Positions 14,803 to 54,682 of a stretch of DNA of 64,000 bases are shown piece after piece (position 1 is the first letter of the stretch; the number at the start of each line of letters is the position of its first letter). The notes under the pieces are model-generated. The model was not told where the DNA came from, searched no databases, and was given only the letters and a program-made list of their open reading frames with translations. Position numbers and translations under genes: made by a program. The stretch is taken from assembly GCA_016839165.1 (NCBI GenBank), contig CP069300.1:1674001-1738000 (forward strand), read 5' to 3'. Source of the stretch: Bradyrhizobium sp. PSBB068. GTDB lineage: Bacteria; Pseudomonadota; Alphaproteobacteria; Rhizobiales; Xanthobacteraceae.

Positions 14803-15750
14803 GTGGCAAAAGTGCTGGTGACCGGCGGGGCCGGATTTCTTGGCTCACATCTGTGCGAGCGGCTCGTCGAGCAGGGCCACGATGTGCTCTGCGTCGACAA
14901 TTACTTCACCGGCAGCCGGGCCAACATTGCGCATCTGGTCGGCAATCCCCGGTTCGAGGTCATGCGCCACGACGTCACGTTCCCGCTCTATGTCGAGGTG
15001 GACCAGATCTACAATCTGGCGTGTCCGGCTTCGCCGATTCATTACCAGTTCGATCCGGTGCAGACCACCAAGACCAGCGTTCACGGCGCCATCAACATGC
15101 TTGGTCTTGCCAAGCGCGTGAAGGCAAAGATCCTCCAGGCGTCGACCTCGGAGGTCTATGGCGATCCGGAAATCCATCCGCAGGTCGAAGCCTATTGGGG
15201 ACACGTCAATCCGATCGGACTGCGCTCCTGCTATGATGAAGGCAAGCGCTGTGCCGAGACGTTGTTCTTCGACTATTGGCGACAGCACGGCCTGCGGATC
15301 AAGGTCGTGCGGATATTCAACACCTACGGGCCCCGCATGCACCCCAATGATGGCCGGGTGGTGTCGAACTTCATCGTCCAGGCGCTCAGCGGCAATGATA
15401 TCACCATCTACGGTGACGGCCGCCAGACCCGCAGCTTCTGCTACGTCGACGATCTGATCGAGGCGATGATCCGGGCGATGGACACGCCGAACGATTTCAC
15501 CGGGCCAATCAATATCGGCAATCCCAGAGAGTTCACCATCCGCGAACTGGCCGAGCAGGTCATTGCAATGACCGGATCAAGAAGCAGACTGGTGTTCGCG
15601 CCGCTGCCGTCCGATGACCCCCGGCAAAGGCAGCCGGACATTTCGCTGGCGCGCGCGGTGCTCGGCTGGGAGCCGGCTATCGATCTCGGCCGTGGCCTCG
15701 AGCGAACGATCGGCTACTTCCGCGGCCAGTTGAAAGCGGCGGCCGAATAG
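14803..15750 (+). CDS. UDP-glucuronate decarboxylase-like SDR (UDP-xylose synthase type)
   Basis: This 315-residue extended SDR is of the UXS group, which converts UDP-glucuronate to UDP-xylose with bound NAD. Seen are the NAD motif [11 protein letters not shown], the [10 protein letters not shown] stretch, the catalytic Ser/Tyr/Lys set ASTSEVYGD plus YDEGKR, and the UXS-type [19 protein letters not shown] and [15 protein letters not shown] motifs. Its start codon is GTG with AGAGGGAG upstream. It converges on the T2SS operon, ending 26 bp from gspM. The sugar-nucleotide product could feed surface polysaccharide or the glycosyltransferases encoded at 23.9-28.7 kb; that link is inference. Confidence 0.93.
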
Positions 15751-15776
15751 CATCCGTCCGATTGGGACACCGTCGG

Positions 15777-16349
15777 TCAAGCCGTCCTGCGGCGCCAGAA
15801 GGCGTGCACCGTCAGATTGACCTTCAACACCAGATCGCCGGCGCTGCGTTCGGCCGATCCTCCGGGCTGCACTAGCAGTGCGTCGACGAACACATAGGGG
15901 GTGCCGCTTTCGAGCCGGTAGAGCAATGTCTGCAGCGCCGAAAGCGTGGCATTCAGGGAGATCTGCAGTCTGATGGCGTCGCTCTTGTCGTCGCGCTCGG
16001 CGGGAACGCCCGACGAGACCAGGACGGCATGCTCGCTTGTCACCAGTTCGGAGAGATAGGCCTGCAACTGCGCGGTGGCGAGGCCGCTGGTCGGCGCATC
16101 CAGGAAGGCCGCTGCTGGCGCTGCGAGGCGTTGGGTCTGTGCACCCTTGTTGGCAGCCGGCCGCGAATGTGCCTCCAGCGCCGCCAGCTCGTCGCGCTGT
16201 TCGGCGAGGTGTTGCAGAGCGTTGGAACGTGCCTGCAGCGCGCCGGCAATCGCGATCGCACAGAGCATCAGCAGCGCGCAGAAGCCGCCGACCGCGAAGA
16301 CCTGCTCGCGGCTGATGTCGAACTTGAAGTTGAGCCTCGGCTTCGGCAC
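15777..16349 (-). CDS. gspM: Type II secretion system protein GspM
   Basis: This 190-residue inner-membrane protein is of the T2SS assembly platform. A short cytoplasmic tail precedes one membrane helix (about residues 20-40, VGGFCALLMLCAIAIAGAL). A coiled coil (RSNALQHLAEQRDELAALEA) and a C-terminal ferredoxin-like region follow. The last segment reads VNLTVHAFWRRRTA, typical of the alphaproteobacterial GspM type related to PilO. It is the final gene of the operon, three bases after gspL. GspM partners GspL in controlling the GspE ATPase. Confidence 0.85.
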   Translation of the reverse strand: MPKPRLNFKFDISREQVFAVGGFCALLMLCAIAIAGALQARSNALQHLAEQRDELAALEAHSRPAANKGAQTQRLAAPAAAFLDAPTSGLATAQLQAYLSELVTSEHAVLVSSGVPAERDDKSDAIRLQISLNATLSALQTLLYRLESGTPYVFVDALLVQPGGSAERSAGDLVLKVNLTVHAFWRRRTA

Positions 16350-16352
16350 GGT

Positions 16353-17402
16353 TCACTCTCCATCGATCCTGACATGCGGCTCGACGCGCGCCTCGATATG
16401 GAACACGAAGCGGCCGCCGTCGGCATTGCGCGTGGTCGGGGCAAAGAAATGCACATCCTTGAAATGCCCGGAGCGTTCGAGCGGCGCGATCAGCGACGGC
16501 GCATCGCCTGCCAGGCCTGTGATGCGCAGCGTCGAGCCGTCCATGTTCATCTCGGTGAGATAGGACGTATCGGGGAGGGCGCGGGACAGCGCTTCGACCA
16601 CCACCACTGCAACCGGCGACGTCTCCTTCAGGGCGCGCGCCCGCTCGGCCGGCGCGAGCGAGGCGATGGCCGCTTTCGACGAGCTGCCCCTGATCTGGCG
16701 CTGCAGCGTCGCAACGCGCGGTCCGATTTCGTCGCTGTCGCCGTCCGCGGATGCCGCACTCATGAAGGCCCAGACGTTGACGACCAGCGTCAGACAGACC
16801 GCTCCGATCATCAGGCCGGCGACCATTCGGCGTGTCCGCGACAGGTTGCTGTCGGTCGCATGGGCCAGGCGCGACCACAGCGTGATCGCTCCGTCATCGC
16901 GGTCCTTGCCTGCAACGACGCGATCGACCCGCAGCCCCAGGGCACGGAGCTCACCGCATGCCTCGTCGAGCGTCGCGCGCGAGGTGGCGAGGACCTGCAC
17001 ATTGAGGATATTTGCGTCGGCGCCGGCGGCTACCTTGAAGCCGTAGGCGGCCTGGCTCGCCCGCCATGGAAACAGTCGCTCGATCTGATTGCGCACGATG
17101 CCCGCCAGAAGATCGCGCGCCTGTGCCGGAACGGTCATCGCGCGCGAAACAATATCGGGGGCGGGAAGCTCGAGAATGACGAACGATTTCTGCGCGGCGC
17201 GAACGATCTCGTCCGGCAGCGCGATGCCTGCAGACCCCGCCGCGGACGTCGATCTCGTCGATTTCTTCGCGTCTTCAAGAATCCATTCGCTGCCGACCCT
17301 GGTCACTTTCAACCAATGCCGGGCGCGGCGCCGCTCCTGCCAGCCGAGCCACAGCCGGGCGAGGATGTCGATCCAGCGTCGCATGATCACGTCGATGTTC
17401 AT
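16353..17402 (-). CDS. gspL: Type II secretion system protein GspL (PilN-like)
   Basis: This 349-residue bitopic protein links the GspE ATPase to the membrane platform. The N-terminal about 200 residues form an actin-like/PilM-like cytoplasmic domain (QKSFVILELPAPDIVSRAMT and QIERLFPW motifs typical of this fused PilM-PilN type). A membrane helix lies at about 212-232 (VAGLMIGAVCLTLVVNVWAF), followed by a periplasmic ferredoxin-like domain with SYLTEMNMDGSTLRITGLA, characteristic of PilN/GspL. The start at 17402 shares one base with the gspK stop (TGATG overlap), indicating translational coupling. Confidence 0.88.
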   Translation of the reverse strand: MNIDVIMRRWIDILARLWLGWQERRRARHWLKVTRVGSEWILEDAKKSTRSTSAAGSAGIALPDEIVRAAQKSFVILELPAPDIVSRAMTVPAQARDLLAGIVRNQIERLFPWRASQAAYGFKVAAGADANILNVQVLATSRATLDEACGELRALGLRVDRVVAGKDRDDGAITLWSRLAHATDSNLSRTRRMVAGLMIGAVCLTLVVNVWAFMSAASADGDSDEIGPRVATLQRQIRGSSSKAAIASLAPAERARALKETSPVAVVVVEALSRALPDTSYLTEMNMDGSTLRITGLAGDAPSLIAPLERSGHFKDVHFFAPTTRNADGGRFVFHIEARVEPHVRIDGE

Positions 17403-18343
17403 CAGGGCACCTCCAGCGATGCGACCGCACCTGGCGTTGCGAACCGCGATACCGGTGTCCAGGCCAGAACCCGGTACGGCTGCTTGTCGTCGGGGAGCAG
17501 CACGATGAACGCCTTGGCTCTCGCGGTGTATCCGCCGGTCGTGCCGGCGACGAGGTTCACCGCGACCACATGCGTCTGCGGCGCCTTCAGATATTTCTGC
17601 GCCGGTCCGAGCAGGAAGGAGAGCCGCTCGGGATCGACCAACGGAGAACTCCGCATGTCGAGGAAGGTGTCGAGACGCTCCGCATCGAACGACGGCAGGG
17701 CCCGCAGTACCGCCACCGGTGCGGTGAGCGGATCGACGCCGTCGCCGCCGAACACGGTGATCAGCGGTGCCATCGCGGCCATCCACTGCGGCTGCATGCC
17801 GGGAATACCGGCGATCTGCCCGATGTCGGTGAACGGTGCGGCAGCAGGCGTGGCCGCGGGCTGGTCCGGCTTGGCGGGCGCCGATGGCTTCGCCCTATCG
17901 TTCGGCCGCGGCTGCGCATCGTTCGGTCGTGCTTGCCCTGCAGACTCGCGTAGCGCGACGATCCGTTGCGCCAGGATGCCGGCATCGTCATCCTCGGCAC
18001 CGACACTGCGCAGCAGTGACGCGAGCAGCTCGACCGGGGCCCTTCCGATGTCGATGCGGCCGCCTTCGTCGCTGACGGTCAGCTGGACCGATCCGGCTGC
18101 GAATGTCAGCGTGGAGCTGCGCTCGGTAAGCGGAGCATCTCGCGACGCCGCAACGATGCCGGCGGCGGCCTCGAGCCCTGCGGCCAGCAGCCCATCGGCT
18201 TGCACGCGCTCCCGGTCGATCCGAACGATGCCGGCGAGGCTGCGAAACGTCGTCGACGTGGCCATGGCGAGGAGGGCGCACAGCGCGATCGCCCAAAGCA
18301 CGGCGAGCAGAACCATGCCGCGTTGGGCATGATGCTTGCTCAT
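17402..18343 (-). CDS. gspK: Type II secretion system minor pseudopilin GspK
   Basis: This 313-residue protein is the largest minor pseudopilin and caps the pseudopilus tip. The prepilin-type N-terminus is MSKHHAQRG followed by MVLLAVLWAIALCALLAM. GspK lacks the usual Phe1/Glu5 pattern, as expected. Domain features include the helix-hairpin-helix-like IGQIAGIPGMQPQWMAAMAPL segment and the TVFGGDGVDPLTAPVAVLRAL motif of the GspK family. A Pro/Ala-rich insertion sits near residues 140-175. It overlaps gspJ by four bases upstream and gspL by one base downstream. Confidence 0.93.
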   Translation of the reverse strand: MSKHHAQRGMVLLAVLWAIALCALLAMATSTTFRSLAGIVRIDRERVQADGLLAAGLEAAAGIVAASRDAPLTERSSTLTFAAGSVQLTVSDEGGRIDIGRAPVELLASLLRSVGAEDDDAGILAQRIVALRESAGQARPNDAQPRPNDRAKPSAPAKPDQPAATPAAAPFTDIGQIAGIPGMQPQWMAAMAPLITVFGGDGVDPLTAPVAVLRALPSFDAERLDTFLDMRSSPLVDPERLSFLLGPAQKYLKAPQTHVVAVNLVAGTTGGYTARAKAFIVLLPDDKQPYRVLAWTPVSRFATPGAVASLEVP

Positions 18344-19077
18344 CGGCGTGCTCCCGGCGCCGGGCCCTTGACCGGTGTCTCCTTTGGCGATCCGGACTTG
18401 CCGGTGACGCAGTCGGCGTTGGCTCCGGGCTGAGCGCAGCCCATCGGGGCGTCGGCGCGCAACGTAAACTGAACGCCAGGCAACAGATCGGCGCCGCTCG
18501 CGCGATCCCGAACGGTCAGCCGCACCAACTGCGGCAGCAGCGGCTGTCCGGCCCATGTCGCGCTCCAGGACAAGGTCCCGTCCGGGCCAGGATTTCCGAA
18601 CGCGAATGTGATGTCGACCTGGCCTTCGATCATGCGGACCGGGTCTTGCAGCGCGACGCCCGCGAACGGCGTGCGCTGTCCTTGCCATCGGGCCCGGCGC
18701 CGGACCAGACGATTGACACCGTCCGTCTCCTCGACCTGCAGGCTGACGACTTCCTCGCCCTGGCCACCACCCGCACTGCTTCCGGTGACGAACGTCATCC
18801 GGTTCGCGTCGCCGTCGAAGGCGGCCGTCGCGTCCGCGCCGTCCCCCTGTTTCACCTGCCGGGCCGACCCGATATCCGCCGCGAGGCGGTCGACCGCGAG
18901 CAGCAACTGATCGGTCTTTCCCACCAGGCCCGTCCTGCGATCGAAATTCAGCGCGACGTTGTTGATCAGCACCGCGGTTGCGGCAATCACCGCGGACCCG
19001 ATCGCGAGCGCGGCAAGCACCTCGATCAGCGTGAAGCCACGCGACGCATGGACTACTCTGCGAGGTGGGGTGCTCAT
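18340..19077 (-). CDS. gspJ: Type II secretion system minor pseudopilin GspJ
   Basis: This 245-residue minor pseudopilin of the tip complex (GspH-I-J-K) has the class III signal SRG then FTLIEVLAALAIGSAVIAAT, with Glu5 present. The globular part contains LLLAVDRLAADIGSARQV and a C-terminal VRLTVRDRASGADLLPGVQF strand region. It overlaps gspI and gspK by four bases each (ATGA type), so it is translated as part of a tightly coupled operon. It must be processed by a prepilin peptidase (GspO), which is not encoded in this window. Confidence 0.9.
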   Translation of the reverse strand: MSTPPRRVVHASRGFTLIEVLAALAIGSAVIAATAVLINNVALNFDRRTGLVGKTDQLLLAVDRLAADIGSARQVKQGDGADATAAFDGDANRMTFVTGSSAGGGQGEEVVSLQVEETDGVNRLVRRRARWQGQRTPFAGVALQDPVRMIEGQVDITFAFGNPGPDGTLSWSATWAGQPLLPQLVRLTVRDRASGADLLPGVQFTLRADAPMGCAQPGANADCVTGKSGSPKETPVKGPAPGARR

Positions 19078-19574
19078 TCGTCAGCCTCAGGTCCGAGCCG
19101 CAACGTATCCGCGCTGACCATCTGTCCGGGCGCCCACGACACCGTCGCAACGAGATGGTACGCGATCCAGTTCGGCCGCTTCGTTGCCGCCTCCGCCTTC
19201 TTGTCCGGCGGGGTTGACGTCGGCGCGTCCCGCCGTACGGCGATGGCACCGACGAACATCGGCTCCGACGTGACCGACCAACGCAACCCGGCGGTCTCGC
19301 CGTCACGCGTTCCATTTGCGAGAATCGCACGATCGACCGGAGAATCCAGGATCGTGCGCAACAAGACCTGAGCTGCAATACGGCCGTCGATCTTGTCCGC
19401 GATCCTGCGTGCGTAAAAAAGATGCGGGCCGAGCACCGATACGAACGCCAGGAGCAGCGCCATTGCGACCAGCGCCTCGATCAAGGTGAACCCTGCCTCA
19501 GCTGCGCGAGGTTCAGGGCAGATCGACCGCAACGCGGCCGTTGTACCAGTTGACGTCCACCTCATAGCGCACAT
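19074..19574 (-). CDS. gspI: Type II secretion system minor pseudopilin GspI
   Basis: This small pseudopilin has the signal AEAG then FTLIEALVAMALLLAFVSVL. The globular part includes LRWSVTSEPM and the C-terminal VATVSWAPGQ strand. As drawn the gene has 166 codons and overlaps gspH by 62 bases. A TTG at about 19536, nearer the prepilin signal, could be the true start, giving a shorter leader. The last bases overlap the gspJ start (ATGA). It follows the operon order H-I-J-K normal for T2SS. Confidence 0.87.
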   Translation of the reverse strand: MCAMRWTSTGTTAALRSICPEPRAAEAGFTLIEALVAMALLLAFVSVLGPHLFYARRIADKIDGRIAAQVLLRTILDSPVDRAILANGTRDGETAGLRWSVTSEPMFVGAIAVRRDAPTSTPPDKKAEAATKRPNWIAYHLVATVSWAPGQMVSADTLRLGPEADE

Positions 19575-19962
19575 TCTCCCAGGAGAACTTCAGCACCGAG
19601 CCGGTCGAGGCGCCGTCCGGCTCGAACCGCACGACCGCCTGCCGTCCCGACCAGAGCTCGTTGACGCCAATCACATCGACCCGGACGTCGCGGGGGATCG
19701 CGATCGTACCGGCCTGCGCGACGATCGTGCGCGTATTGCCGTCGAGCGACACGCGGCGGCTCTGCCCGGTGAGAATCGCCGCAAGTCGCTCGCGTCGCAG
19801 CAGCGCTACGGTTTGCAGCGTCAGCGCCTTCAGGCTGCCGCGCCCGGTGCCCGGAACGGTCGCCACCACCAGCGATGCCAACATCGCGATGATCAGCATC
19901 ACCGCCATCATCTCGATCAGGGTGGAGCCCGCCATCGAACCGCTGATTGTCGTGCGCGCCAT
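19513..19962 (-). CDS. gspH: Type II secretion system minor pseudopilin GspH
   Basis: This 149-residue pseudopilin has its cleavage site at MAG then STLIEMMAVMLIIAMLASLV. Position +1 is serine instead of the usual phenylalanine, while Glu5 is kept. Downstream are LLRRERLAAILTGQSRRVSL and a beta-rich C-terminus (VVRFEPDGASTGSVLKFSW), matching the GspH fold. Nine bases separate it from gspF upstream in the operon. The serine at +1 is tolerated by some prepilin peptidases and does not by itself mean loss of function. Confidence 0.87.
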   Translation of the reverse strand: MARTTISGSMAGSTLIEMMAVMLIIAMLASLVVATVPGTGRGSLKALTLQTVALLRRERLAAILTGQSRRVSLDGNTRTIVAQAGTIAIPRDVRVDVIGVNELWSGRQAVVRFEPDGASTGSVLKFSWENVRYEVDVNWYNGRVAVDLP

Positions 19963-19971
19963 CGGCCATCC

Positions 19972-23025: not shown

Positions 23026-23658
23026 TCACCTGCTGCCGCCCAACGGCAATCGCCGGCCAAGCAGCGTATCGCTTTCGCTCGCTGGATGAAGCGCCGCGCG
23101 GTCCCGTTCGCTGAACGGGTTTCGACGCCGAAACCCGACCCGCGGCATCTGCGCGTTCCGATCGATGCACACCGCGCAATGCACCAGCGCCTGCTTGATC
23201 TCGACCTGGACCGTGCGCACGCTGATGCCGAACCGCTTCGCCACTTGTTGCAACGGGATTTCTTCAACGCATATCGCCATGAAGATCTCCCGGCGACGCG
23301 CAGGTAGTTCCTGGATGGCGCGGCGGAGCGCACTGATCTCGGATCGCGCCTCGATGATCCGGTCCGGGCCGGGAGTTTCGTCCGGCAGATCGAACACCGT
23401 ATCCGCTTGCGGCACCGTGCGACGGCGACGTTCGGCGACACGCCGGTTGCTGATGGCGCTCATCGCCACGCGGAACAGATATGCGGGCAAATCGCGAACT
23501 GGTCCGATGCCGTCCGCTTTGCTCAAGCGCAGAAACGTGTCTTGCAACGCCTCGTCGGCGAGATCGGCCGATCCGGTCCGCCGTGTCAAACGTTGTTTGA
23601 GATCGTCGTAGCTTGTGACGAGGAGCGCGAGCAACGCCGTTCGATTGGTGTCGCTCAT
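23026..23658 (-). CDS. ECF-type RNA polymerase sigma factor
   Basis: This 210-residue sigma-70-family factor of the FecI-like ECF group has sigma-2 at about residues 15-85 (ADLADEALQDTFLRLSKAD and LPAYLFRVAMSAISNRRV) and sigma-4 at about 110-165 (ALRRAIQELPARRREIFMA, then IPLQQVAKRFGISVRTVQVE). An extra C-terminal tail of some 40 basic residues is unusual. The start at 23658 (MSDTNR) is more typical than a start 12 codons earlier. No FecR-type anti-sigma gene is adjacent. It is directly upstream of gspE on the same strand, so it probably controls the secretion operon. Confidence 0.9.
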   Translation of the reverse strand: MSDTNRTALLALLVTSYDDLKQRLTRRTGSADLADEALQDTFLRLSKADGIGPVRDLPAYLFRVAMSAISNRRVAERRRRTVPQADTVFDLPDETPGPDRIIEARSEISALRRAIQELPARRREIFMAICVEEIPLQQVAKRFGISVRTVQVEIKQALVHCAVCIDRNAQMPRVGFRRRNPFSERDRAALHPASESDTLLGRRLPLGGSR

Positions 23659-23903
23659 TGCAGGGGCCCCATCCCCAACCGCGGCAATCGTCACATTTCA
23701 AGTCCGTCACGACATTTCTAGCGACGATTGGTGACATGGAAATGAAACCACAGCGAGTGTTCACGTCACGGCATGCCACGCCACGATCGATGATGCGGAA
23801 TTGATCTGCGTGCTGCACGCGTGCTGCGCGCGTCACGGCTGCGGCCACACAAGATCGTTCGCAAGCGTCGAGCACGAAGCGAACACCGGTGAGGAAACGC
23901 ATG

Positions 23904-47100: not shown

Positions 47101-50100
47101 AGCTTCGCCAACATGCACGCGCGGCCGGAGATCGATCTGATCAATCCGAGCCTCAACATCAACAACGGCAACATCACGGTCGCCAGCAACTGGAATCTGG
47201 GCGCGGGCAGCGTCGACGCGTCCGGCCATGTCTCGCTGGTGTACCGCACCGCGACCGGCGGCGAGCCCGGATCGCTGGTTCTGCAGGCGAAGAACAACGT
47301 CAACATCAACGCGACGGTGACCGACGGCTTCTTCGTCAACTACACGCCGCGCGGCGGGGACGCGTCCGCGCTCTACGCCAGCGAGATCAATTCGAGCCTC
47401 TACAGCTCCTATCTCGGCATGTTCCAGAACGGCGTCCTGCAGTACAATTCAAGCGGCATCGTCGACTATCTGGTGAAGACCAACGGCTCGTGGTCGGGCC
47501 CGTCATCGCCCACGGCCTCGCCCAGCGCCGCGTTCTTCGGTCTGTCGGCTGCCGCCTATAACGCGCTCGCACTGCAGTTCAAGCTGGTGCAGCCGACTGT
47601 CATAAGCTCCAGCAATCCGGCGGTGATCGATCAGTACAATCTGTACTATTCCCAGTACCTGAGGATGTTCCGCGCCTACGAGACCGAGCTGGTCGGGGTC
47701 AACGTCAATGGGATCAACGCATCGATGACGGGCGTTTCGGCGCGCGGCGGCATCGTGCTGTCCTACGCAGACTTCGTGGCGTACACCAACACGCTGTCTG
47801 ACAATCACGTGAAGCCGTCAATCAACGCGATCCCGGCGGCACCAACCACAAGGACACAATATTACAATCTGACCAACGGCATCGGAAAGTTGTTGTACAA
47901 TTCGGGGACCGGCAACGTGGTCACCGGGGCGCAGGACTATGCCACTAAGTGGACGGCATACTTCCTCAGCGTCATCAATACCAATCTGGTGAACAACAAT
48001 AAGGGCAAGTTGAACAATTTCGTCAGCCAACCGAATTTGCTGGGAGCCCTGGACCATGCGGCCGGAATCGACGTCGCCGACGGAATCCTTGCGGCTATCG
48101 CGGTGACGCCGCCGGCGGCGCCGCCGGCCTATACCACCCTGCAGGGGACATACGCGCCTTCGGGAGATCCGACACCTCCCGCCGACCGGATCGCGAACAA
48201 TCCGACGATCTACAACCCGCCTGGTGGAAACCCCATCGTCGTCTTCAACACCACCGCGGCGTCGCAATTGATGTCGGCGGCGGTGAGCGGCAAGGGGAGC
48301 TTCTCCTACGATATCGTTGCCGGCGCGGCTTTCATCGGCAATACGCCATCGGTTGATCCCAACGCGGTGACCGCCTTGTCGTCGTTGCCGCCGACGGTGA
48401 CGGGCAAGGTCACCATCGATGGCCACACCTCCTATCTGAACACCGAGCCAAACCTTGCAGGTGCCGGCACCATCTACATTCCGACGGTCGTGCGCACGGG
48501 CACCGGCTCCATCACCATCGCTGCGGCCGGCAATGTCGAACTGCGCGACCAGGTGGCTCCGGGCGCGGTCTACACGGCGGGCGCCGCCACGGCCACGCCC
48601 GCAGATTTCAATGCACCGACGCTATCTATCGGTTACGGTTTCAATCCGAACGGGCTTGTCAGCACGCCGACTTGGGCAACGGGCGGCGGGGCAGTCACCA
48701 TCAGCGCTGGCGGCTCGATCATCGGCATCGAGATGCCGATCGATTCCAACGGCAGCCGGTTCGGCGTGCAGGGCGGGCCGGCCGGCCAGATGTGGAGCGA
48801 CTGGTATGTCCATTACGGCCTCTCAAACGGCACGTCGACGCCGTTCGCGGCATGCGCGGCCTCGGGCTCTGTTGCCTGCCAGACGGCGGCTTGGGTCAAT
48901 TACGCCACCTTCTTCCAAGGCTTCGGCGCGCTGGGCGGCGGCAACATCGCGCTTTCGGCGGGCGCCGATATCATCGATGTCGGCGCGTCGTTGCCGGAGA
49001 CGCTCGTGGTCGGCGGCGGTTTTACCTCGGCCAATCCGCCAAAGATCACCTATTTCGGCGGTGGCAATCTCAGCGTAACCGCCGGCGGCAACCTCCTGAG
49101 CAGCGATTTCCTGGTTGGCCGCGGTGCCGGCCTGATCCGGGTGGGTGGCTCAGTCCAGGCCACCAGCAGCAATCCGTTGAACCAGGGCCTGCCGACGCTC
49201 GGAGTTACACTCGCCGCGAACTCCGTCGCCGGCACCTACCCGCTGCCCTTGTTGCTGGCGGTGCAGGACGGCTTCATCAGTTTGGCCGCGCGAGGTTCGG
49301 TGACGCTCGGCAACGTCTACGATCCCGCCGCATTGCCAGTCAATCTTGGGATCCAAGCCGACCCGACGCGATTTTTGCCTGGAGCATCGCCGGATGCTCG
49401 GAGCAATGGCAACGCCGCTTGGAGCAACTATTTCACTAGCTATGGCCCAGGCAGCGGCGTTTCGCTGACGAGCCTCACCGGCGATGTGACAGGCCCGACT
49501 GTGTCGGTGAATTCGATCCCAGGACTTTTTGTGCACAACGCGGGCGGTGTTCAGATCGGCGGTCAGGCAGACCCTGCGACCGTCGGTCTGCTGCTTCCCG
49601 CCACGTTCGATCTGATAGCACTTAACGGAAATCTGACCCTCAGCAAAACGGACGTCAGCAATCTGCTGCCGAGCAACACGGGCACGATCAATCTTGTCGC
49701 AGCCGGTTCAATTAGCCTCGGAGCCGGCCTCGCGATGCTAGATATCGATAGCCGCTTCACGCGATATATCGGCTCAAATGACACCTTCGTCAACTTGGCC
49801 GGTAACTCTATCAATCTCCTCGGAACTCCGTGGCCCACGCTGACCCAGGCGCTGCATGCCAACGATCCCGTGCCGGCCGTCATCGCGGCCGGCAAGGATA
49901 TCTATGGCGTTGATCCCGTCAGCACTCTTGCCGCCAGCGTGACCCTGATCAAGCCGGCGCGGATCGAGGCCGGCCACAACATCTACGCGGGGCGGGCCCC
50001 GGGCGGCGGCGTCTCGACGACCAGCAATGGCACACCGCTGGGCGGCAACAGCCTTAATTTCCTCGGCCAGAACAACAATGCGACCGATATCACCAGCATC

Positions 50101-51471
50101 GTCGCCGGCAACGATCTGGTCGGCGGCTCCTATCTCCTCTACGGCCCCGGCACCTTCGTGCTGGAGGCCGGGCATGATCTAGGTCCGTTCTCGCCGTCCG
50201 ACTCGTCGACACGCGGCATCGCGACGATCGGCAACGGCAGCGCGGCCGGCGGCGCATTCGCTAGTGCTCTTCCCAATAATCCTCTCAAGCCTTATTTGCC
50301 GTCCAAGGGAGCCGAGCTCGATCTGCTGTTCGGCGTGAAGCCCGGCATCAACTATGCCGCGGCGATCGCCAACTACGTCGATCCGGCGCAGGCCGGCACC
50401 GGCGGTATCGACTTCCTCACCGATATCGCCGCCGTGCTCGGCCAGCCGCGCGATCAGGCCTGGGCCACTTTCAAGGGCCTGCCGCAGGCGCGGCAGCAGC
50501 TGCTCGTCAACCGCGCCTTCCTCGATTTCCTGATCCAGGTAGGCAAGGACTTCAAGAATCCGGATAGCCCTTATTTCGGCCAGAACGCCCGAGCCTATAC
50601 GGCGATCTCCACGCTGTTCCCGGCCGGCTACGGCTACACCGACAACAGCCTGAGCGTCGCCGGCAAGGCCGCGCCGAAGATCGCGACCGGCAGGTTCAAT
50701 GTCGCGGCCTCCGTGCTGGAGACCCAGATGGGCGGCGACGTCAACATCCTCGGGCCGGGCGGCGGCATCACCGTCGGCCATTCCTCGCTCGATACCTTGA
50801 GCCCAAGCCAGGAAGGCATTCTGACCCTCGGCGGCGGCGCCATCCGTGCCTTCGCCGACGCCTCGATCCTGGTCAACCAGAGCCGCATCATGACCCAGCA
50901 GGGTGGTGACATCGGCCTGTTCACCGCCAATGGCGACATCAGCGCCGGCGCGGGACCGAAGACCTATGTCTCGAGCCCTGCGCTCGGCGAGATCTGCACC
51001 CTCGGCGGCTATTGTTACATCAATCCGCAGGGGCTGGTCACCGGCGCCGGCATCGCCGCGCTGGTCACGCTGCCCGGACAGGATCCGACCAAGAGCAACG
51101 TCACCCTGGTCGCGCCCCGCGGCACCATCGATCTCGGCGCGGCGGGCGTTCGCGGTCATGATCTCATTTTCGTGGCGCCGGTCGTCCAGAACGGGTACAA
51201 CGCGCAGGCCACCGGCACGGAGACAGGGCTCACAGCCCCACCATCCGCGAACACGGCGCTGGCCGGAGTCACCAACAACGCGGCGGCGGCGACCCAGCAG
51301 TCCGGCCAGCCGGCGCAGAACAAGCCCAACGACCAGCCTTCGGTCGTGATCGTCGAGGTGCTGGGCTATGGCGGCGGTGGCGACGACGCGACGCCGGCCG
51401 GTAGCAGCGGCAGTGGCGACAGCCAGAAGCAGAACGGCAGCGACGACGAGCACCGCCGGCAGCAGCCGTAG
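38188..51471 (+). CDS. Giant filamentous-haemagglutinin-family surface protein (4,427 aa)
   Basis: The signal peptide (about residues 1-32) contains SRRGLLLAGASS, a twin-arginine-like motif, and ends at SPAAA. An Ala/Gln-rich, probably coiled-coil segment follows (about 42-100). The haemagglutinin/TPS domain spans roughly 125-330, with NWQSFNVGSGTTVNFNQ and LINQNGIIFGG as in two-partner-secretion proteins. Most of the rest is beta-helix-like, rich in Gly/Ala/Ser/Thr/Asn with GGxxxxSAG-type turns. A GxGY repeat block lies near 2290-2510 and a Tyr/Asn-rich non-repeat region near 3070-3350. A DUF3739-like region lies near 4130-4350, before an acidic/Gln-rich C-terminal tail. GGAAGG precedes ATG 38188. 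No TpsB/FhaC gene is present; T2SS genes flank it instead. No frameshift is seen. Confidence 0.93.
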   Translation: MHSLPRSISRRGLLLAGASSIAIAMSSPAAARPFGAWGGVSSAATQAAISAAQDAAQQAQQAAQNSQASMARAAQAIQALQAAQSVARGLAASAPSAVPNGLNAGGLVPNSGLAAPGVANPVTNWVGAATPTQTSSGGQTTVNINQTQPQAVLNWQSFNVGSGTTVNFNQQGNANWAALNRIASAGVPSQILGTIRADGAVYLINQNGIIFGGTSQINVHTLIASTLDLPSQLSGSNYKGFLQSGLFSQLGNVPVSVVPPNTASGAAIFNVGSGSGKVTVQPGAIIDTTGKLSANGDGGYVALLGDGGVSNAGAITTRNGQIILASDSSVTLVTPLSTAVGVQTAMRVLANGGVVTNQASGLLTSNSGAVTLSGGSINQLGGIVATTSTTRTGSINMNTACVQSGCASGADGNIVLGSASLTSILPDETSGTLPTATLNTPTSANGASNAPYFQTVLQPQLSITAVGSVDVQGTGAGAAGAMIKAPGAALTIGADSVAGTVLLEKGSTIDLSGITGVTLPMSINQISILVTAAEVADSPLAQALIGKTVTIDARLGGTRADGVKWVGSPLLNAAGYVGLIPQSIDQILTAGGSFSTSGKNVVQQPGATINVSAGYVQYTGGLISTTRLLGADGRVYDIGRADPTIAYVGVGGGFTVLHKVNGVVDTKLTEIYLSPWGGSSNSHYEASYITGANAGSVTVAAVNPIVNDIIGNVVAGSRQRALAGSSNLSSADQMPKGASLSITFANPTGTGNPNNLVLTSQAAAGADPYGLGGLNFANASSWSPTLVNGLFPIFTDLLSNASLGAVSITGAHRLDMTTNAVLSVRPGGSITLDNVATIDGTLSAPAGQLSLTGFTYPVKFQPAQPPVPALVIGPHAVLDVRGRWVNDTGLSADQLEGRAYVNGGSVSISTLSASNGPSRGDGAFVDVTQSIVLSPGSVIDLSGGGYVDTTGKVKIGSDGLPVGKGGSLTLSLYTGAFSGNLGSNESPADFNVLPHGTNPDGTVNYPNQANVLLGGTVYAGGFDGGGTLTLQASTIAVDGATADVTSYVSTNTANAVALQSGIPVAGMAVSDAKAGRVVLPPSFFTSGGFSQYTLTDISGGVTVTAGTQLLLQKQPSAVLSGREVKIPTGARVRDFASLGLVPDGLRKPVSLTLGGTNVLVDRGAAIVTDPLATVALNAVATAAIRGNIVVPAGSINATGTEVRIGATAVLDVSGVFVPNPQVTAYSTGTVRDAGTISLLATSVVAEPGAQFNLQGAAVTAESNLIQLPQAGFGPHVVGQAAWSNGGSLQLSGRTVYFAGSVDAAGGAPLATGGSLTIGVVNDTAKGAPPAPDIITVQQPGVVAANLPALGASATAGAFIGADTLSNSGFDSVTLNAQTIAFGGSVNVRIPGALTLNARAGHIAIADGSVVNLNAGYVRLVGLVPSAQSIVPTAGAGTLNVTAQWIDLERGIGLDNAGSVNLTSAGAIRLLPQYYGFVDGSFGAGETTFGGALLVPGNLTLRAAEIYPVSNTAFLLMSTGASGAITIAQNGIPTPPLSAGGSIVISAQNIVQGGTLWAPLGNIILGVRTSSDVPAQFINAIANEGHVTFASGTFTPTASVTLAAGSLTSVSAAGLVVPDGYTVDGTTWYQGASTNQGVPVLAAPPSKSIDLFGTNVATQSGALLDLSGGGDIYATEFVAGTGGSRNVLTTYQQNPANGSAIPTYADGRQIYALVPTYSAGVAAYDPNFAFAPYSSGLVVPAGNSTNGAPAGSVQPFANGIAPGQSVTIGAGSGIPAGTYTLLPGMYATLPGAYRVVQVANNVNPNAVAGTSSSDGSRYVTGTFGNQLTGARSSQSAVFQLQSQSVWSQYSRIDITSGTTYFRNQALAAGNAPPPLPIDGGVLVLGATNSLNLAGTNRFAPGTSDLAPGLVGGGGQVQISGKNILVLASDRAVPAGDCVGGSAAGCTDANNYLVLDADQISGLGASSVLIGGTAQVINGVQNITASALNLEVLTDAAHPLTGPELLLVSLAGDGALVTGRGLVIGDGSVVRAVGAVPGGTDRNITIGSLPVKQSDGSYVFASGDGALLRVSNGDTVTVSRIYVPGQYAGSGPPPSSKVPLGAFSIGAGAIIDGGNALTLDTSGSGTLASDAILNARNYDIAGSVINIGGGSTGIVLNSTILANFNDAVSVRLRSATAINLYDANGLQIGDAAHPIGTLTFDGAGLFSQGGNTTVNATNIDLANTSGATGVGITGAGGTLTLNASQVITEDVGAKHLGGFSQINFNAGKAIAFSGNGTLDTGSIAAAALAFNVGGVTISNPGTGYTGVPTVTISGGGGSGAQGTALLGVVSFAVVSGGSGYSNGDPVTVSGTDSNGNPVTATGTAIVDANGAVTGVKLTSSGSGFPGSVDSISVNSATGDGSAQLTAALGVVGVTITNPGTGYTSMPTFSFSGGGGVATAAQVLVNVTGINLTNAGDGYLSTPTIKISGTGTTATATVSGGAVTGLALTNAGTGYSSLPTVTFSGGGAGAANMVLSAPAIVVNSGATQSLSTLGNVSLLTAAGNKPASVASNIGGALAIAGGSITDSATIQALSGKVSLTATAGDVVLGSGALINASGSRIAILDVVQDAPGGDVQLASTTGNVIVGQGATVSVAGAGRGFAGSVSILAANSATLNGTLDGSAAFKDLGGNFTLQAGTLNGATGLPLSAFSGGFTVRLGNGDIRIDAGQTLSSGKVLLVANNGSVIVNGTIDASGPSGGQISLYGAGVTAGGVTTGGVSIGSSAVLNASYAAGNPSDPAYATASLVQTGGTITLGTTGTPDAGGAVNATYGYQNMTTSGAISVAPGAIFDVSGGPGGPNINNSGGAVIIRAPILTNNTVNVDFRGTVRGVLDANGNPIGKGVVLNPYAVWSTTDSSTGARHFDGIIDPAGWFDAAGNPLPGTDQNGKTIVAPTPQATGTVFIVSAPNADHVSFYQNTLAGFVQNLAVTPAGGSASFANMHARPEIDLINPSLNINNGNITVASNWNLGAGSVDASGHVSLVYRTATGGEPGSLVLQAKNNVNINATVTDGFFVNYTPRGGDASALYASEINSSLYSSYLGMFQNGVLQYNSSGIVDYLVKTNGSWSGPSSPTASPSAAFFGLSAAAYNALALQFKLVQPTVISSSNPAVIDQYNLYYSQYLRMFRAYETELVGVNVNGINASMTGVSARGGIVLSYADFVAYTNTLSDNHVKPSINAIPAAPTTRTQYYNLTNGIGKLLYNSGTGNVVTGAQDYATKWTAYFLSVINTNLVNNNKGKLNNFVSQPNLLGALDHAAGIDVADGILAAIAVTPPAAPPAYTTLQGTYAPSGDPTPPADRIANNPTIYNPPGGNPIVVFNTTAASQLMSAAVSGKGSFSYDIVAGAAFIGNTPSVDPNAVTALSSLPPTVTGKVTIDGHTSYLNTEPNLAGAGTIYIPTVVRTGTGSITIAAAGNVELRDQVAPGAVYTAGAATATPADFNAPTLSIGYGFNPNGLVSTPTWATGGGAVTISAGGSIIGIEMPIDSNGSRFGVQGGPAGQMWSDWYVHYGLSNGTSTPFAACAASGSVACQTAAWVNYATFFQGFGALGGGNIALSAGADIIDVGASLPETLVVGGGFTSANPPKITYFGGGNLSVTAGGNLLSSDFLVGRGAGLIRVGGSVQATSSNPLNQGLPTLGVTLAANSVAGTYPLPLLLAVQDGFISLAARGSVTLGNVYDPAALPVNLGIQADPTRFLPGASPDARSNGNAAWSNYFTSYGPGSGVSLTSLTGDVTGPTVSVNSIPGLFVHNAGGVQIGGQADPATVGLLLPATFDLIALNGNLTLSKTDVSNLLPSNTGTINLVAAGSISLGAGLAMLDIDSRFTRYIGSNDTFVNLAGNSINLLGTPWPTLTQALHANDPVPAVIAAGKDIYGVDPVSTLAASVTLIKPARIEAGHNIYAGRAPGGGVSTTSNGTPLGGNSLNFLGQNNNATDITSIVAGNDLVGGSYLLYGPGTFVLEAGHDLGPFSPSDSSTRGIATIGNGSAAGGAFASALPNNPLKPYLPSKGAELDLLFGVKPGINYAAAIANYVDPAQAGTGGIDFLTDIAAVLGQPRDQAWATFKGLPQARQQLLVNRAFLDFLIQVGKDFKNPDSPYFGQNARAYTAISTLFPAGYGYTDNSLSVAGKAAPKIATGRFNVAASVLETQMGGDVNILGPGGGITVGHSSLDTLSPSQEGILTLGGGAIRAFADASILVNQSRIMTQQGGDIGLFTANGDISAGAGPKTYVSSPALGEICTLGGYCYINPQGLVTGAGIAALVTLPGQDPTKSNVTLVAPRGTIDLGAAGVRGHDLIFVAPVVQNGYNAQATGTETGLTAPPSANTALAGVTNNAAAATQQSGQPAQNKPNDQPSVVIVEVLGYGGGGDDATPAGSSGSGDSQKQNGSDDEHRRQQP
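45058..45720 (+). repeat. GxGY/PTxxxSGGG repeats inside the giant adhesin
   Basis: Within residues about 2290-2510, at least four imperfect units repeat the pattern N-P/A-G-x-GY-xx-x-P-T-x-x-x-SGG(G). Examples are NPGTGYTGVPTVTISGGGG, NPGTGYTSMPTFSFSGGGG and NAGTGYSSLPTVTFSGGGA, plus a variant NAGDGYLSTPTIKISGTG. The units are about 30-70 residues apart. Similar motifs occur in phage tail-spike-like and autotransporter-like proteins. It is a sharp change from the surrounding haemagglutinin-type beta-helix and looks inserted. Confidence 0.8.
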
Positions 51472-51701: not shown

Positions 51702-52610
51702 ATGATGTCATCCCCGTCAACCGCGTCCGCGCCATCGCTTCCCGTTTCCGAGACCGACCCGCTGAGCACGCTGCTTGCAGCCGAACGGCTTACCGCTGTG
51801 GTCGATATCGGCGCCAACCCGATCGACGTCCCGCCCTATCTGCCGCTGCTGCAGAAACGCCTGTGCCGGCTGTTCGGCTTCGAGCCGCAACCGAGCGCGC
51901 TGGCCGAGTTGAATGCCCACAAGAGCGAGCTCGAGACTTATCTGCCTCATGTCGTCGGCAGCGGCGAGCAGGCCCGCCTCCGCGTCTGTGCCGCACCCGG
52001 GATGACCAGCCTGCTGGAGCCCGACCCAGTCATGCTGAAGCACTTCCAGGGCTTCAACGAATGGGCCCGCATCATCGCCGACAGCAGGATCGCGACGCAT
52101 CGGCTCGACGATATCGGCGAGATCGATGCGATGGATTATCTCAAGATCGACGTGCAGGGCTCGGAGCTCGCGGTTTTCCAGAACGGACGGCGGCGGCTCG
52201 CGGAAGCGGTCGTGATCCAGACCGAGGTCTCGTTTCTGCCGCTGTACAAGAAGCAGCCGGTGTTCGGCGAGATCGACCTCGAGCTGCGCAGCCAGGGCTT
52301 CATCCCCCATGCCCTGCTGGCGATCAACAAGCGGATGATCTGGCCGATGCGCGGCGTCAATGCCTATGAGGCGTTCAACCAGCTGCTCGAGGCCGACGCC
52401 GTCTATGTCCGCGATTTCACCAAGGCCGACGCGATGAGCTCCGAGCAGCTCAAGCATCTCGCCCTCGTCGCCCATCACTGCTACGGCTCCTACGATCTCG
52501 CGGCGATCTGCATCCAGCATCTGCTCAATCGCGATGCGATCATCCCCCAGGCCGGAAGCCGCTATTTCGAGCTGGTCGCCGCGCAGCGCGCCGCCGCCAC
52601 GGCCGGCTGA
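51702..52610 (+). CDS. FkbM-family methyltransferase
   Basis: This 302-residue SAM-dependent methyltransferase is of the FkbM/Methyltransf_21 family, whose members mostly O-methylate sugars. Motif I appears as AVVDIGANPIDVPPYLPL with FGFEPQPSALAELN behind it. The family signature MDYLKIDVQGSELAVFQNGR lies near residue 145. The C-terminal 70 residues are helical and non-conserved. Starts ATGATG at 51702. It sits between the giant adhesin gene and a PstS-like gene, both probable exported proteins, so it may decorate the glycan added by the TPR glycosyltransferases. That role is inferred. Confidence 0.9.
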   Translation: MMSSPSTASAPSLPVSETDPLSTLLAAERLTAVVDIGANPIDVPPYLPLLQKRLCRLFGFEPQPSALAELNAHKSELETYLPHVVGSGEQARLRVCAAPGMTSLLEPDPVMLKHFQGFNEWARIIADSRIATHRLDDIGEIDAMDYLKIDVQGSELAVFQNGRRRLAEAVVIQTEVSFLPLYKKQPVFGEIDLELRSQGFIPHALLAINKRMIWPMRGVNAYEAFNQLLEADAVYVRDFTKADAMSSEQLKHLALVAHHCYGSYDLAAICIQHLLNRDAIIPQAGSRYFELVAAQRAAATAG

Positions 52611-52652: not shown

Positions 52653-52665
52653 CTGAAGTCTTGAA

Positions 52666-52697
52666 GATCGTGATCCGGATCGTCCCGGATCACGATC
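52666..52697 (-). terminator. Hairpin terminator after second PstS-like gene
   Basis: A perfect 13-bp stem GATCGTGATCCGG/CCGGATCACGATC with a 6-nt loop lies 12 bp after the minus-strand PstS-like stop. Together with the hairpin at 52624 it forms a two-sided barrier between convergent genes. Confidence 0.6.
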
Positions 52698-52708
52698 CGA
52701 TGTCGGCG

Positions 52709-54682
52709 TCAGTTCGCGCCGCCGGTGACGCCGGCGCAGCCGTCGGTTTGCGTGCCCGACGTGCTGTAGGCCGCGATCGCGGTCGGCAGGCCGCCGGCCG
52801 CGCTCGATGTCAGATAGGCGTTCAGGATGTTGGTGGCCCACAGGCCGTCGAGTTCGTGGAAGCCGTTGTTGCGGATCACCCGGGCGACGTTCGGATCATA
52901 GCCGGGATTGTCGGAGTTCGAGGTCGCCGGATTGTAGTTCGGCAGCCCGGTGATCGATCCGCCGAAGTACCAGGCGAGCCAGTTCTTCACAGCAGGCACC
53001 CGCGTCCCGGCCGTGTCGCTGTAGCAGCTATACACGTTGAGGAAGCTCGCGCCGGTGATCGGATAGTCGCTCTGCGTCTGCAGCGGGATGCCGATGACGG
53101 ACAGGCCGTCATAGGTCACGCCGCCGACGACGGTGCCGGCGGGATAGACCTGGGCATACAGGTTCCAGGCATCATAGCTGCTGTTGACGCTCGGCGCGGT
53201 CAGGTTGGAAAACGCCAGCTGGGCATTGTTCGGCGTCGGCCGGACGAAGTTTTGCGCCCTGCCATTGCTGCCGGTCTGACCGGGGTGATAGACGCCGAGC
53301 AGGCGCTGCCGTTCGTTCTGGACGCTGGCCGACAGCGGTGCCGCCGCGGAGATCGTGGTGCCGGCGATTTCCTCGGTCACGGTCTGCGCATAGGGCTGGG
53401 TGAAGTCGGCGCTGAGATAGCCGATGCGGCCGGCGAAGCGCGGATCGGTCCCGATCTTCAGCGCTTCGTGGTTGCTGCCCGACGCGCTGATCCAATGCGG
53501 ATCCGGACGTTCCTCATCGTCGTCCACGTCGAACGGGTCGCTCTGGTCGGAGCTGCTCACCGCCCTGATGTTGTCGAGCAGGCGGGAGAACTTGCCGGAC
53601 GGCAGGTTCGCCGTGGTGCTGCCGCCGACGCCGACGCCGGTGAAGATCTTCTTGTAGTTATAGGTGCCGGTCGGGTCGAGTAGCGGGCAGAGGTTGGCGA
53701 GGTAGTTGGTCAGGATGAAGCTCGCGCCGGCATCATCCACGCGGTAGACCACCTTGATCGGCAGCCGGCCGCTGGTATAGGCGACCGGGGTCAGCGAACC
53801 GTTGGTGTTGGCGTCGTAAAAGTGCTGGAATTGCTGCACGCCGTGGGCGTCGAGCGCGGGGATCAGCGTCGAGGTGTCGTGCCAGTCCGTCACGGTCGCC
53901 GAGAAGATCGCGCAGAGCTGCGCGGCGGAGAGCTGGATCGCTCCGCCGGCCTGGTTGTTCGGCGACAGCGCCGACTGGTTGGTCCAGGTCACGCCCGAAG
54001 CGGAGTTCGACGTGTTGACCGCAATCGCAACCGGGACCTCCATGGCCGGCACCTGGATCGGCGCGCCGACGGCTGACGGATTGAAGCTGGCGGCCGTGCT
54101 GCTCAGGGCGCCGATCAGCAACGTGTTCTGCCAATTGGTCGACGGGATGAAATTGCTGAACGAGATCGTGGTCAGGCTTGCAATCGAGCTGGCGAGCGGC
54201 GCGTCGCTGGCGGCGAAGTCGAGCCGCGGATAGGGATAGCTCTTGAAGGCCGAATTGGCGGTGTCGCGGAACGCCGGCTTGGCCGAGGGCTTGCGCACCA
54301 CGGCCGGCGCGGAGGCCGGGCTGCCGCGGAACAATTGCTGCGCATCGTCGGCGATGTAGGCGCGCTGGCCGTTGCCGGAGCCGACGGCGGCGAACAATCC
54401 CTCGATCGAGGTCGAGAACAAGGTGCAGCTGGTCGGCAGCAGGTTCGGGCTCGGCGTCGCGGTCGAGAAGCTCGGCGAGAATGCCTGGCCGTCATTGGCC
54501 AGCGTCGCGCCCGCATAGCAGTCGAAGATCTGCCGCAGCGCCAGCGACGACAGCGTGCTGCCGCCACCGTAGATGCCGGTTTGGGCCGCAGCCGGTTGCT
54601 GGGCTCCGATCATGGCGGCGGCCGACAACACGACCAGCGAGGTCGTGCCCAGCACGCGTTCGGCGAACGATTTCGTCTTCAT
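52709..54682 (-). CDS. Second PstS/DING-like protein with altered phosphate site
   Basis: This 657-residue exported protein is paralogous to 29101-31035. The signal peptide ends near AAA-QTG (residue 31). Conserved fold motifs are GGGSTLSSLALRQIFDCY, AVGSGNGQRAYIAD, the aspartate motif LDFAASDAPL and the VYRVDDAGASFILTNYL helix entry. In the last motif the Ser-Gly-Thr that contacts phosphate in PstS is replaced by Ala-Gly-Ala, so the anion site is probably changed or lost. The C-terminal half (residues 450-657) again aligns with its paralogue by eye (IGYLSADFTQPYA). GGGAAGG precedes ATG 54682. No transporter genes are nearby. Confidence 0.83.
   Translation of the reverse strand: MKTKSFAERVLGTTSLVVLSAAAMIGAQQPAAAQTGIYGGGSTLSSLALRQIFDCYAGATLANDGQAFSPSFSTATPSPNLLPTSCTLFSTSIEGLFAAVGSGNGQRAYIADDAQQLFRGSPASAPAVVRKPSAKPAFRDTANSAFKSYPYPRLDFAASDAPLASSIASLTTISFSNFIPSTNWQNTLLIGALSSTAASFNPSAVGAPIQVPAMEVPVAIAVNTSNSASGVTWTNQSALSPNNQAGGAIQLSAAQLCAIFSATVTDWHDTSTLIPALDAHGVQQFQHFYDANTNGSLTPVAYTSGRLPIKVVYRVDDAGASFILTNYLANLCPLLDPTGTYNYKKIFTGVGVGGSTTANLPSGKFSRLLDNIRAVSSSDQSDPFDVDDDEERPDPHWISASGSNHEALKIGTDPRFAGRIGYLSADFTQPYAQTVTEEIAGTTISAAAPLSASVQNERQRLLGVYHPGQTGSNGRAQNFVRPTPNNAQLAFSNLTAPSVNSSYDAWNLYAQVYPAGTVVGGVTYDGLSVIGIPLQTQSDYPITGASFLNVYSCYSDTAGTRVPAVKNWLAWYFGGSITGLPNYNPATSNSDNPGYDPNVARVIRNNGFHELDGLWATNILNAYLTSSAAGGLPTAIAAYSTSGTQTDGCAGVTGGAN

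Follow-up and report, generated by a model that had tools for sequence, protein, structure and literature searches.

Gene context of a giant adhesin and a type II secretion system in Bradyrhizobium: probably one half of a dispersed PUMA3-type locus

The window analysed here, a stretch of 64,000 nucleotides from Bradyrhizobium sp. PSBB068 (genome G000, 7.67 Mb in two contigs; G000:C1:1674001-1738000), holds the genes of a type II secretion system (T2SS) interleaved with the gene for a giant adhesin of the TpsA type, that is, of the two-partner secretion (TPS) kind. A preliminary description of this DNA had proposed that the T2SS takes the place of TpsB, the transporter of TPS systems, and that the known parallels of the locus are separate systems. 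Our analysis supports a conserved gene unit and a link between glycosyltransferase and giant; it does not support the T2SS in place of TpsB or the separate parallels. The cluster consists of the following features, in window positions:

14803..15750, plus strand: NAD-dependent epimerase/dehydratase (UDP-xylose-synthase-like); flanks gspM and is still there, in two matched pieces, in the giant-less genome G337
15777..16352, minus strand: gspM (XpsM type), over the NCBIfam cut-off
16353..17393, minus strand: gspL, by PilN domain and position
17402..18349, minus strand: gspK, family match below the equivalog cut-off
18340..19077, minus strand: gspJ, by prepilin-type N-terminus and position
19074..19499, minus strand: gspI, by prepilin-type N-terminus and position
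19513..19971, minus strand: gspH (XpsH-like), NCBIfam match below the equivalog cut-off
19972..21177, minus strand: gspF, family match below the equivalog cut-off
21185..22900, minus strand: gspE ATPase, family match below the equivalog cut-off
23026..23694, minus strand: extracytoplasmic function (ECF) sigma factor, kin of sigma factors near five other giants and TpsB; a 51-residue remnant in giant-less G337
23904..26360, minus strand: tetratricopeptide repeat (TPR) protein with a GT9-like domain (Glyco_transf_9)
26541..28781, minus strand: TPR-GT41 glycosyltransferase, with SPINDLY as nearest solved relative; at 1e-150 only with the window giant subtype
29053..31035, plus strand: PstS/DING-like protein 1 (PstS1), PBP_like_2, divergent from the GT41 gene
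31203..31700, plus strand: gspG major pseudopilin, over the NCBIfam cut-off
31766..32518, minus strand: SppA/ClpP-like serine-protease-like protein, weak matches
32515..34908, minus strand: gspD secretin, over the NCBIfam cut-off
34898..37102, minus strand: alkaline-phosphatase-superfamily protein with a nucleotide pyrophosphatase/phosphodiesterase-like predicted fold (by relatives and fold); likely T2SS cargo
37361..37909, plus strand: gspC-like, below cut-off; its place in G179 and G335 is between GspM and GspD
38143..51471, plus strand: giant TpsA-type adhesin (TPS residues 147-391, NQNGI residue 220, DUF3739 residues 4254-4364)
51702..52610, plus strand: FkbM-family methyltransferase, by domain match; not matched next to the giant in G320 or G244
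52709..54907, minus strand, likely start 54682: PstS/DING-like protein 2 (PstS2), PBP_like_2

The open reading frames lie where they had been placed, and together with the codon-position composition they back the gene set named in the preliminary description. Its T2SS set, GspC to GspM, is recovered by Pfam and NCBIfam: GspD, GspG and GspM reach or exceed the NCBIfam cut-off, GspE, F, H and K match their own NCBIfam families below the equivalog cut-off, GspI, GspJ and GspL are called from N_methyl or PilN domains and position, and GspC is tentative (7.5e-9, below the NCBIfam cut-off). The two TPR glycosyltransferases hold (Glyco_transf_41 at 1e-33; Glyco_transf_9 in the second at 24.2 bits against a cut-off of 22), as do the FkbM protein by domain search and the two PstS-like proteins, both of the PstS-type PBP_like_2 family. 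Other labels stand in part. The 'ClpP-like exported protease' has weak SppA/ClpP-related matches, but all of them fall below cut-off, and the UDP-xylose-synthase-like enzyme is an NAD epimerase/dehydratase, but UDP-xylose synthase specificity is not fixed by NCBIfam. The phosphatase-superfamily protein itself finds no match in Pfam, NCBIfam or the PDB sequences, but its relatives and its predicted fold agree with the label: PF01663 occurs in 8 of 120 listed relatives (50-53% identity), and the fold, a modest model with a mean predicted local distance difference test score (pLDDT) of 66, matches nucleotide pyrophosphatases/phosphodiesterases (best E 6e-5). The ECF sigma factor gene at 23026-23694, between gspE and the TPR glycosyltransferase genes, was absent from the preliminary account.

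The giant has 4,442 residues, in which Pfam shows a TPS domain (PF05860, 6.3e-19, residues 147-391) and DUF3739 (residues 4254-4364) alone. With all candidates scored, DUF3739 occurs six times in G000, in open frames of 3,778-4,457 residues, and six TPS domains have the same frame lengths and places. An NPNG-type motif is expected in the TPS domain of TpsA proteins. NQNGI stands at residue 220 inside the TPS domain of the window giant and in all four of the five other G000 giants that were read, and NPNGI and NQNGF occur in TpsB-linked giants of Methylosinus and Methylomagnum. The predicted structure of the DUF3739 region (window:50479-51468) is rich in beta strands and has a tail of low confidence (mean pLDDT 75), and this C-terminal predicted fold has no significant match in the PDB. 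The term 'DUF3739' was unmatched in a PMC literature search, in which Bradyrhizobium papers were not examined, and the cluster may already have been published.

G000 encodes a single ShlB-type TpsB, with POTRA_2 and ShlB domains (all candidates scored), ~4.9 Mb from the window giant on the contig, or 2.7 Mb in the opposite direction should the contig be circular. Adjacency of tpsA and tpsB is usual but not strictly defining. The TpsB operon (L009:2399-14252) runs in the order STN/TonB_2, unassigned gene, ECF sigma, FecR, TpsB, ExbB, ExbD, TonB_2 and putative porin. Its ExbB carries DUF2341 and a laminin-G-like domain, and its ExbD was named through relatives, being 93% identical to an annotated ExbD on a Methylosinus plasmid. 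By similarity, relatives of the window sigma factor lie near all five other giants and TpsB, and the gene calls show, upstream of giants, short genes for STN-like, sigma and FecR-like proteins. At one of these (L016), STN+TonB_2 and FecR are confirmed by Pfam and the sigma factor by similarity, while the window cluster has the sigma factor only of this triad. Another of the six giants, at 6317995 (L012, G000:C1:6309001-6329000), has a second T2SS next to it. GspD and DUF3739 matches ~1 kb apart, as at this locus, were also seen in G338, G153, G265 and G254, among others.

The distribution of these parts was surveyed in 242 genomes of the genus, with TpsB at 1e-20, window-like GspD at 1e-50, GT41 at 1e-150, and DUF3739. 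The genus-wide searches scored part of the first-look candidates in each genome (4-5 for GspD, TpsB and GT41, up to 18 for DUF3739 and up to 11 for the giant C-terminus), and absences there rest on the scored candidates and the matches listed; all candidates were scored in the own-genome TpsB, DUF3739, TPS and GspD-type searches and in a follow-up TpsB search (1e-3). DUF3739 was found in 66/242 genomes, TpsB in 59/242 and window-like GspD in 162/242. TpsB is present in 58 of the 66 genomes with DUF3739 and in 1 of the 176 without it, where it is a fragment (G361); the table of 58 both, 8 DUF3739 only, 1 TpsB only and 175 neither gives p=7e-46 in a Fisher test that takes genomes as independent. 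For DUF3739 and GspD the counts are 56 both, 10 DUF3739 only, 106 GspD only and 70 neither (p=2e-4). Among 150 genomes of the order, three have DUF3739, G000 included, and both of those outside the genus have this TpsB.

Of the eight genomes with DUF3739 and no TpsB, six have short open frames (G205, 260 residues; G266, 1,275; G307, 791) or weaker matches (G208, 7e-16; G216, 9e-12; G268, 9e-4). Giant and GspD occur where TpsB was not found in G216, G220, G268 and G307. In the one-contig genome G307 the giant is cut down to its 791-residue frame (G307:C1:6261577-6261906), which suggests decay following transporter loss. Conversely, giant and TpsB occur with no window-type GspD detected in six genomes (G176, G187, G214, G245, G249 and G375). 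In five of these, read over 50, 40, 60, 80 and 60 kb respectively with G375 left out, no T2SS genes were found but a lone weak GspD-type match in G245 (28% over 260 residues). Linkage was followed in 13 single-giant genomes, namely those positive for DUF3739 that are assembled in 1-6 contigs and show a single DUF3739 match together with a TpsB match. G268 and G307 were left out, having no TpsB and a weak or fragmentary giant. TpsB lies within 40 kb of the giant in 13/13 and GspD within 60 kb in 9/13. In the other four, G292, G312, G334 and G368, the 120 kb read around the giant (~45 kb or more each side) yielded no match to a T2SS gene.

The same association extends beyond the genus. In a scan of named genomes with the TpsB alignment, the best 80 of 401 relatives (L096-L175) fell in beta- and gammaproteobacteria. 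Their loci contain ExbB in 80/80, ExbD in 75/80, a porin in 75/80 and a TonB-like gene in 46/80, and a DUF3739 end within 10 kb in 56/80, or in 49/59 where the flanks are full. T2SS genes lie within 10 kb in 4/80, a linkage that is undercounted since the flank is shorter than the giant gene. These loci were found through TpsB and are therefore uninformative on giants without it. A Methylosinus plasmid (C49) has STN-sigma-FecR-TpsB-ExbB-ExbD-TonB-porin and then a 4,128-residue DUF3739/TPS giant. On a Methylomagnum plasmid, a PstS-like gene, TpsB and a DUF3739/TPS giant follow one another; phoU and phoX lie within 20 kb, and neither ExbB nor ExbD was found nearby (L092); the TpsB-giant pair (L092:32442-37955) adjoins radical-SAM genes for ribosomally synthesized and post-translationally modified peptides, and the PhoU and PhoX genes are in the same 41 kb. 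Records of B. arboris, C. campinensis and V. paradoxus show TpsB-ExbB-ExbD with giant domains nearby, B. arboris also with GspF and GspG. On a plasmid of Cupriavidus USMAA2-4, a T2SS stands beside TpsB-ExbBD-TonB-porin, and no giant was matched in 41 kb.

Within the genus, the gene order of the cluster recurs in relatives, so the cluster is not a chance arrangement and its parts form a conserved unit. G254, G153, G329, G311 and G295 show synteny for all 24 of the window genes or domains used as queries. The cluster is split over contigs in G343, G190 and G220 and rearranged in G152, G228, G244 and G190, and G320 keeps the gspD-to-sigma part, with gspE-M outside the stretch read. Wherever one contig spans both, gspC adjoins the giant (10/10 clusters, window included). 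The GT41 of G220 and the GT9 of G244 match in two overlapping pieces and are possibly broken, and two PstS1-type gene copies were seen in the clusters of G152 (L088-L089) and G295 (L183-L184).

Two relatives join the cluster to the start of the TpsB operon. The G228 contig runs gspG, ClpP-like, gspD, phosphatase, gspC, giant, FkbM, PstS2, PstS1, GT41, GT9, sigma, gspE-M, epimerase, STN, sigma, FecR and TpsB, and breaks off within the last of these. In G220 the contig carries gspJ-M, the epimerase, STN, sigma and FecR and ends after the beginning of TpsB (69 residues aligned), so that the missing TpsB of this genome looks like the result of a break in the assembly. T2SS genes, TpsB operon and giant share one island in G370, G363 and G324, the TpsB operon and giants stand with no T2SS gene in the stretch read in G187, G249 and one island of G368, and a related T2SS stands with no giant in the stretch read in G179, G335 and another G368 island. 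A second window-type giant in G228 (L194-L195, G228:C2:125001-165000) has STN-sigma-FecR before it and no T2SS genes in the 40 kb read.

Gene loss in G337 separates the parts. This genome retains gspC-M, the ClpP-like gene, the phosphatase and the epimerase, and in the 52 kb read there is no match to the giant, FkbM, GT41, GT9, PstS1 or PstS2, with the sigma factor reduced to its remnant; searches of the whole genome likewise found neither DUF3739, nor a TpsB relative (1e-3), nor GT41 (1e-150). These joint losses indicate that giant, glycosyltransferases, PstS pair and sigma factor form one module, and the phosphatase and T2SS another. In G304, window-type GspD, GspG and the ClpP-like gene lie near a contig end and a giant of another type is present in the 60 kb read, where no phosphatase, gspC or window-type giant follows GspD; no GT41 was found in this genome at 1e-150.

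The parallels that had been called separate stand together in Pseudomonas aeruginosa. The passages on the VreI regulon used here list Hxc T2SS genes, alkaline phosphatase, TpsA PA0690, TpsB PA0692, ExbBD and PA0696 in one VreI-controlled locus, and note similar clusters in Rhodopseudomonas, Burkholderia and Janthinobacterium; R. palustris and Janthinobacterium have four such clusters each, three followed by tpsA and one by tpsB and exbBD (Llamas 2009, PMC2729926). The pdtA/pdtB genes are described as a functional TPS system and exbB2-exbD2-tonB4 as a still uncharacterised TonB system (Quesada 2020, PMC7035377), and a TPS review, in the part used, places pdtAB under phosphate control (PMC5422565). 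Compared by published gene content, PUMA3 (vreAIR-hxc-lapA-pdtA/pdtB-exbB2/exbD2/tonB4-PA0696) shares with G000 a giant TpsA, TpsB, ExbBD, TonB, a putative porin, ECF sigma, FecR-type and STN-TonB proteins, a T2SS and a phosphatase-type exoenzyme. In G000, Pfam finds the ECF sigma, FecR and STN triad at TpsB, followed by TpsB-ExbB-ExbD-TonB-porin, and the T2SS occurs with a phosphatase. The STN+TonB_2 proteins at the G000 TpsB and at L016 share the two-lobed STN+TonB_2 make-up given for VreA in the passages used (Llamas 2009, PMC2729926). However, PUMA3 is one locus, whereas the G000 system is dispersed, with its tpsB operon elsewhere and six tpsA genes, and the window T2SS cluster has a sigma factor without FecR or STN. 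The PUMA3 passages used here do not name the TPR-GT41, TPR-GT9, FkbM, PstS pair, SppA/ClpP-like or epimerase genes of the window. The T2SS itself resembles the Xps/Hxc type in its GspC-M set, its XpsM-type GspM, its XpsH-like GspH and the phosphatase-superfamily gene inside it, but it is interleaved with a tpsA module. The G000 composite is a lineage-specific variant of the published kind of locus.

The window probably holds one half, tpsA plus T2SS, of a surface and phosphorus-scavenging system of the PUMA3 type (vre-pdt-hxc) that is dispersed in this genome and in which TpsB would export a probably glycosylated giant and the T2SS a phosphorus-scavenging enzyme. The transport route, cargo, glycosylation and regulation, which we infer from observed domains, co-occurrence, linkage and co-loss, would run as follows. 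As a TpsA protein, the giant would cross the inner membrane via Sec, and the TpsB encoded elsewhere would move it across the outer membrane; that it leaves by Sec and TpsB we regard as highly probable. The same TpsB probably serves the five other G000 giants too. The co-clustered T2SS would export the phosphodiesterase-like protein, which is its likely cargo. While still in the cytosol, the giant (or PstS1) is probably glycosylated by the SPINDLY-like TPR-GT41 together with the TPR-GT9 protein and, in some cases, FkbM. The ECF sigma factor of the cluster probably switches on the giant module, a control for which we see a somewhat better than even case.

The phosphorus link includes the two PstS-like proteins. 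The nearest solved relatives of PstS1 are phosphate-binding/DING proteins, but the window proteins have ~660-730 residues compared with the 376-381 of the DING chains listed, and similarity is low. In G292 (L202-L207) and G312 (L196-L201), giant and TpsB operon flank a PstS2 relative (40-41%), and the 120 kb read gave no T2SS match. These two loci, the Methylomagnum order, in which a PstS-like gene precedes TpsB and giant, and the loss in G337 together indicate that the PstS genes belong with the giant and not with the T2SS. We have dropped the PstS proteins as sure T2SS cargo on the strength of G292 and G312, and their export by the T2SS seems somewhat doubtful.

The GT41 enzyme is the newer element compared with the published locus, as a SPINDLY-like TPR-GT41 tied to one giant subtype. 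Its nearest solved chains are SPINDLY (2e-93), followed by 5djs and O-GlcNAc transferases (OGTs), and no HMW1C-named molecule is among the 60 of 93 listed solved-chain matches that were seen. GT41 is found at 1e-150 in 13/242 genomes. The window-type giant C-terminus (at least 66% identity) is found in the same 13 and in G341 (62% complete, GT41 not found), giving 13 both, 0 GT41 only, 1 giant only and 228 neither, so that GT41 closely tracks this giant subtype. Queries with GT41, GT9 and FkbM gave no match at the five other giant loci of G000 (32-34 kb read around each). HMW1C is itself a GT41 member. The HMW1A/HMW1B/HMW1C system likewise pairs a TPS giant with a glycosyltransferase gene and a GT41-domain enzyme with a TpsA, but the window enzyme is TPR-rich and nearest to SPINDLY, 5djs and OGT, two TPR glycosyltransferases are present, and TpsB is not adjacent in G000.

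Alternatively, the GT41/GT9 pair may modify the PstS/DING-like proteins, or a pseudopilin, and not the giant. GT41 adjoins PstS1 in all 13 clusters read, which makes PstS1 an alternative substrate and the giant the favoured but not the sole candidate, and PstS1, PstS2, GT41 and GT9 are jointly missing in G337. We consider this alternative unlikely, though still the strongest of the rivals, because GT41 tracks the window-type giant in 13/13 genomes and because HMW1C, which glycosylates the HMW adhesin, is a published precedent for a TpsA adhesin with a dedicated glycosyltransferase (TPS review, PMC5422565). For glycosylation of the giant by GT41, the sequence evidence leaves the chances about equal.

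A second alternative is that the T2SS and the TPS giant are unrelated systems that share an island by chance. The 106 of 162 GspD-positive genomes without DUF3739, the six genomes in which giant and TpsB were found and GspD was not, and the four whose giants lie in 120 kb free of T2SS matches would fit it. However, the interleaving recurs in 13 genomes, the same pairing stands under one sigma factor in P. aeruginosa in the passages used (PMC2729926), a T2SS lies beside TpsB on the Cupriavidus plasmid, and G000 has two separate T2SS-giant pairings, so that chance co-location appears improbable. The weakest alternative, export of the giant by the T2SS itself in place of TpsB, would account for giant and T2SS genes together in 13 genomes, gspC beside the giant in the 10 clusters spanned by one contig and the second G000 giant at a T2SS, but we rejected it as the main explanation on TpsB co-occurrence, the G220/G228 linkage and the G337 gene loss, and it is very improbable given the intact TPS domain and motif, a matching TpsB in G000 whose family has DUF3739 close by at most named loci, the TpsB operon start beside the same cluster in two relatives, the six genomes in which giant and TpsB occur and no window-type GspD was detected, and T2SSs of this type without giants (G179, G335 and G337, the last having kept it though giant and TpsB are gone).

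Some observations weigh against the PUMA3-type reading with export of the giant by TpsB. TpsB is not near the window giant in G000, so their pairing is one that we infer, and in G244 the STN-sigma-FecR genes lie beside the cluster while TpsB is on another contig. G330 (81% complete) has three giants of 3,623-3,891 residues and the TpsB family was not found. Two of the six G000 giants adjoin a T2SS, which looks like more than chance and makes some T2SS involvement possible. PstS genes beside giant and TpsB without a T2SS nearby (G292, G312) count against PstS as general T2SS cargo, and the constant adjacency of GT41 and PstS1 was noted above. A Pho-box pattern gave 1 match with 3 mismatches against 3.4 expected, no excess, so the phosphate link rests on gene content. 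Finally, the associations carry no phylogenetic correction.

For the wider family, TpsB transporters belong to a superfamily described, in the passage used, as working without external energy (PMC9355242). In the TpsB N-termini inspected by eye (14 of L096-L175 and 9 of P0001-P0094), several beta- and gammaproteobacterial members have the POTRA start motif ~10-20 residues after an apparent signal peptide. A linker this short would leave hardly any space for a plug helix such as that of FhaC; linkers are longer in the alphaproteobacterial members. The DUF3739-giant/TpsB family might be a distinct, proton-motive-force-powered class of two-partner secretion, with its own ExbB and ExbD, often a TonB-like protein and little plug room, in one lineage of which the giant would also be glycosylated by a SPINDLY-like enzyme and encoded with a phosphorus-scavenging T2SS; from the sequences at hand, we hold this to be a rather long shot.

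The analysis names a probable transporter for a very large surface protein and connects the genus with a system known from work on P. aeruginosa. The link it draws from a SPINDLY-like bacterial glycosyltransferase to one adhesin subtype can be tested cleanly, and its counts quantify a little-noticed point, namely that this TpsB family travels with its own ExbB-ExbD although its superfamily is described in the passage cited as energy-independent (PMC9355242). The glycosyltransferase link and the near-constant association with ExbB are the parts most worth pursuing.

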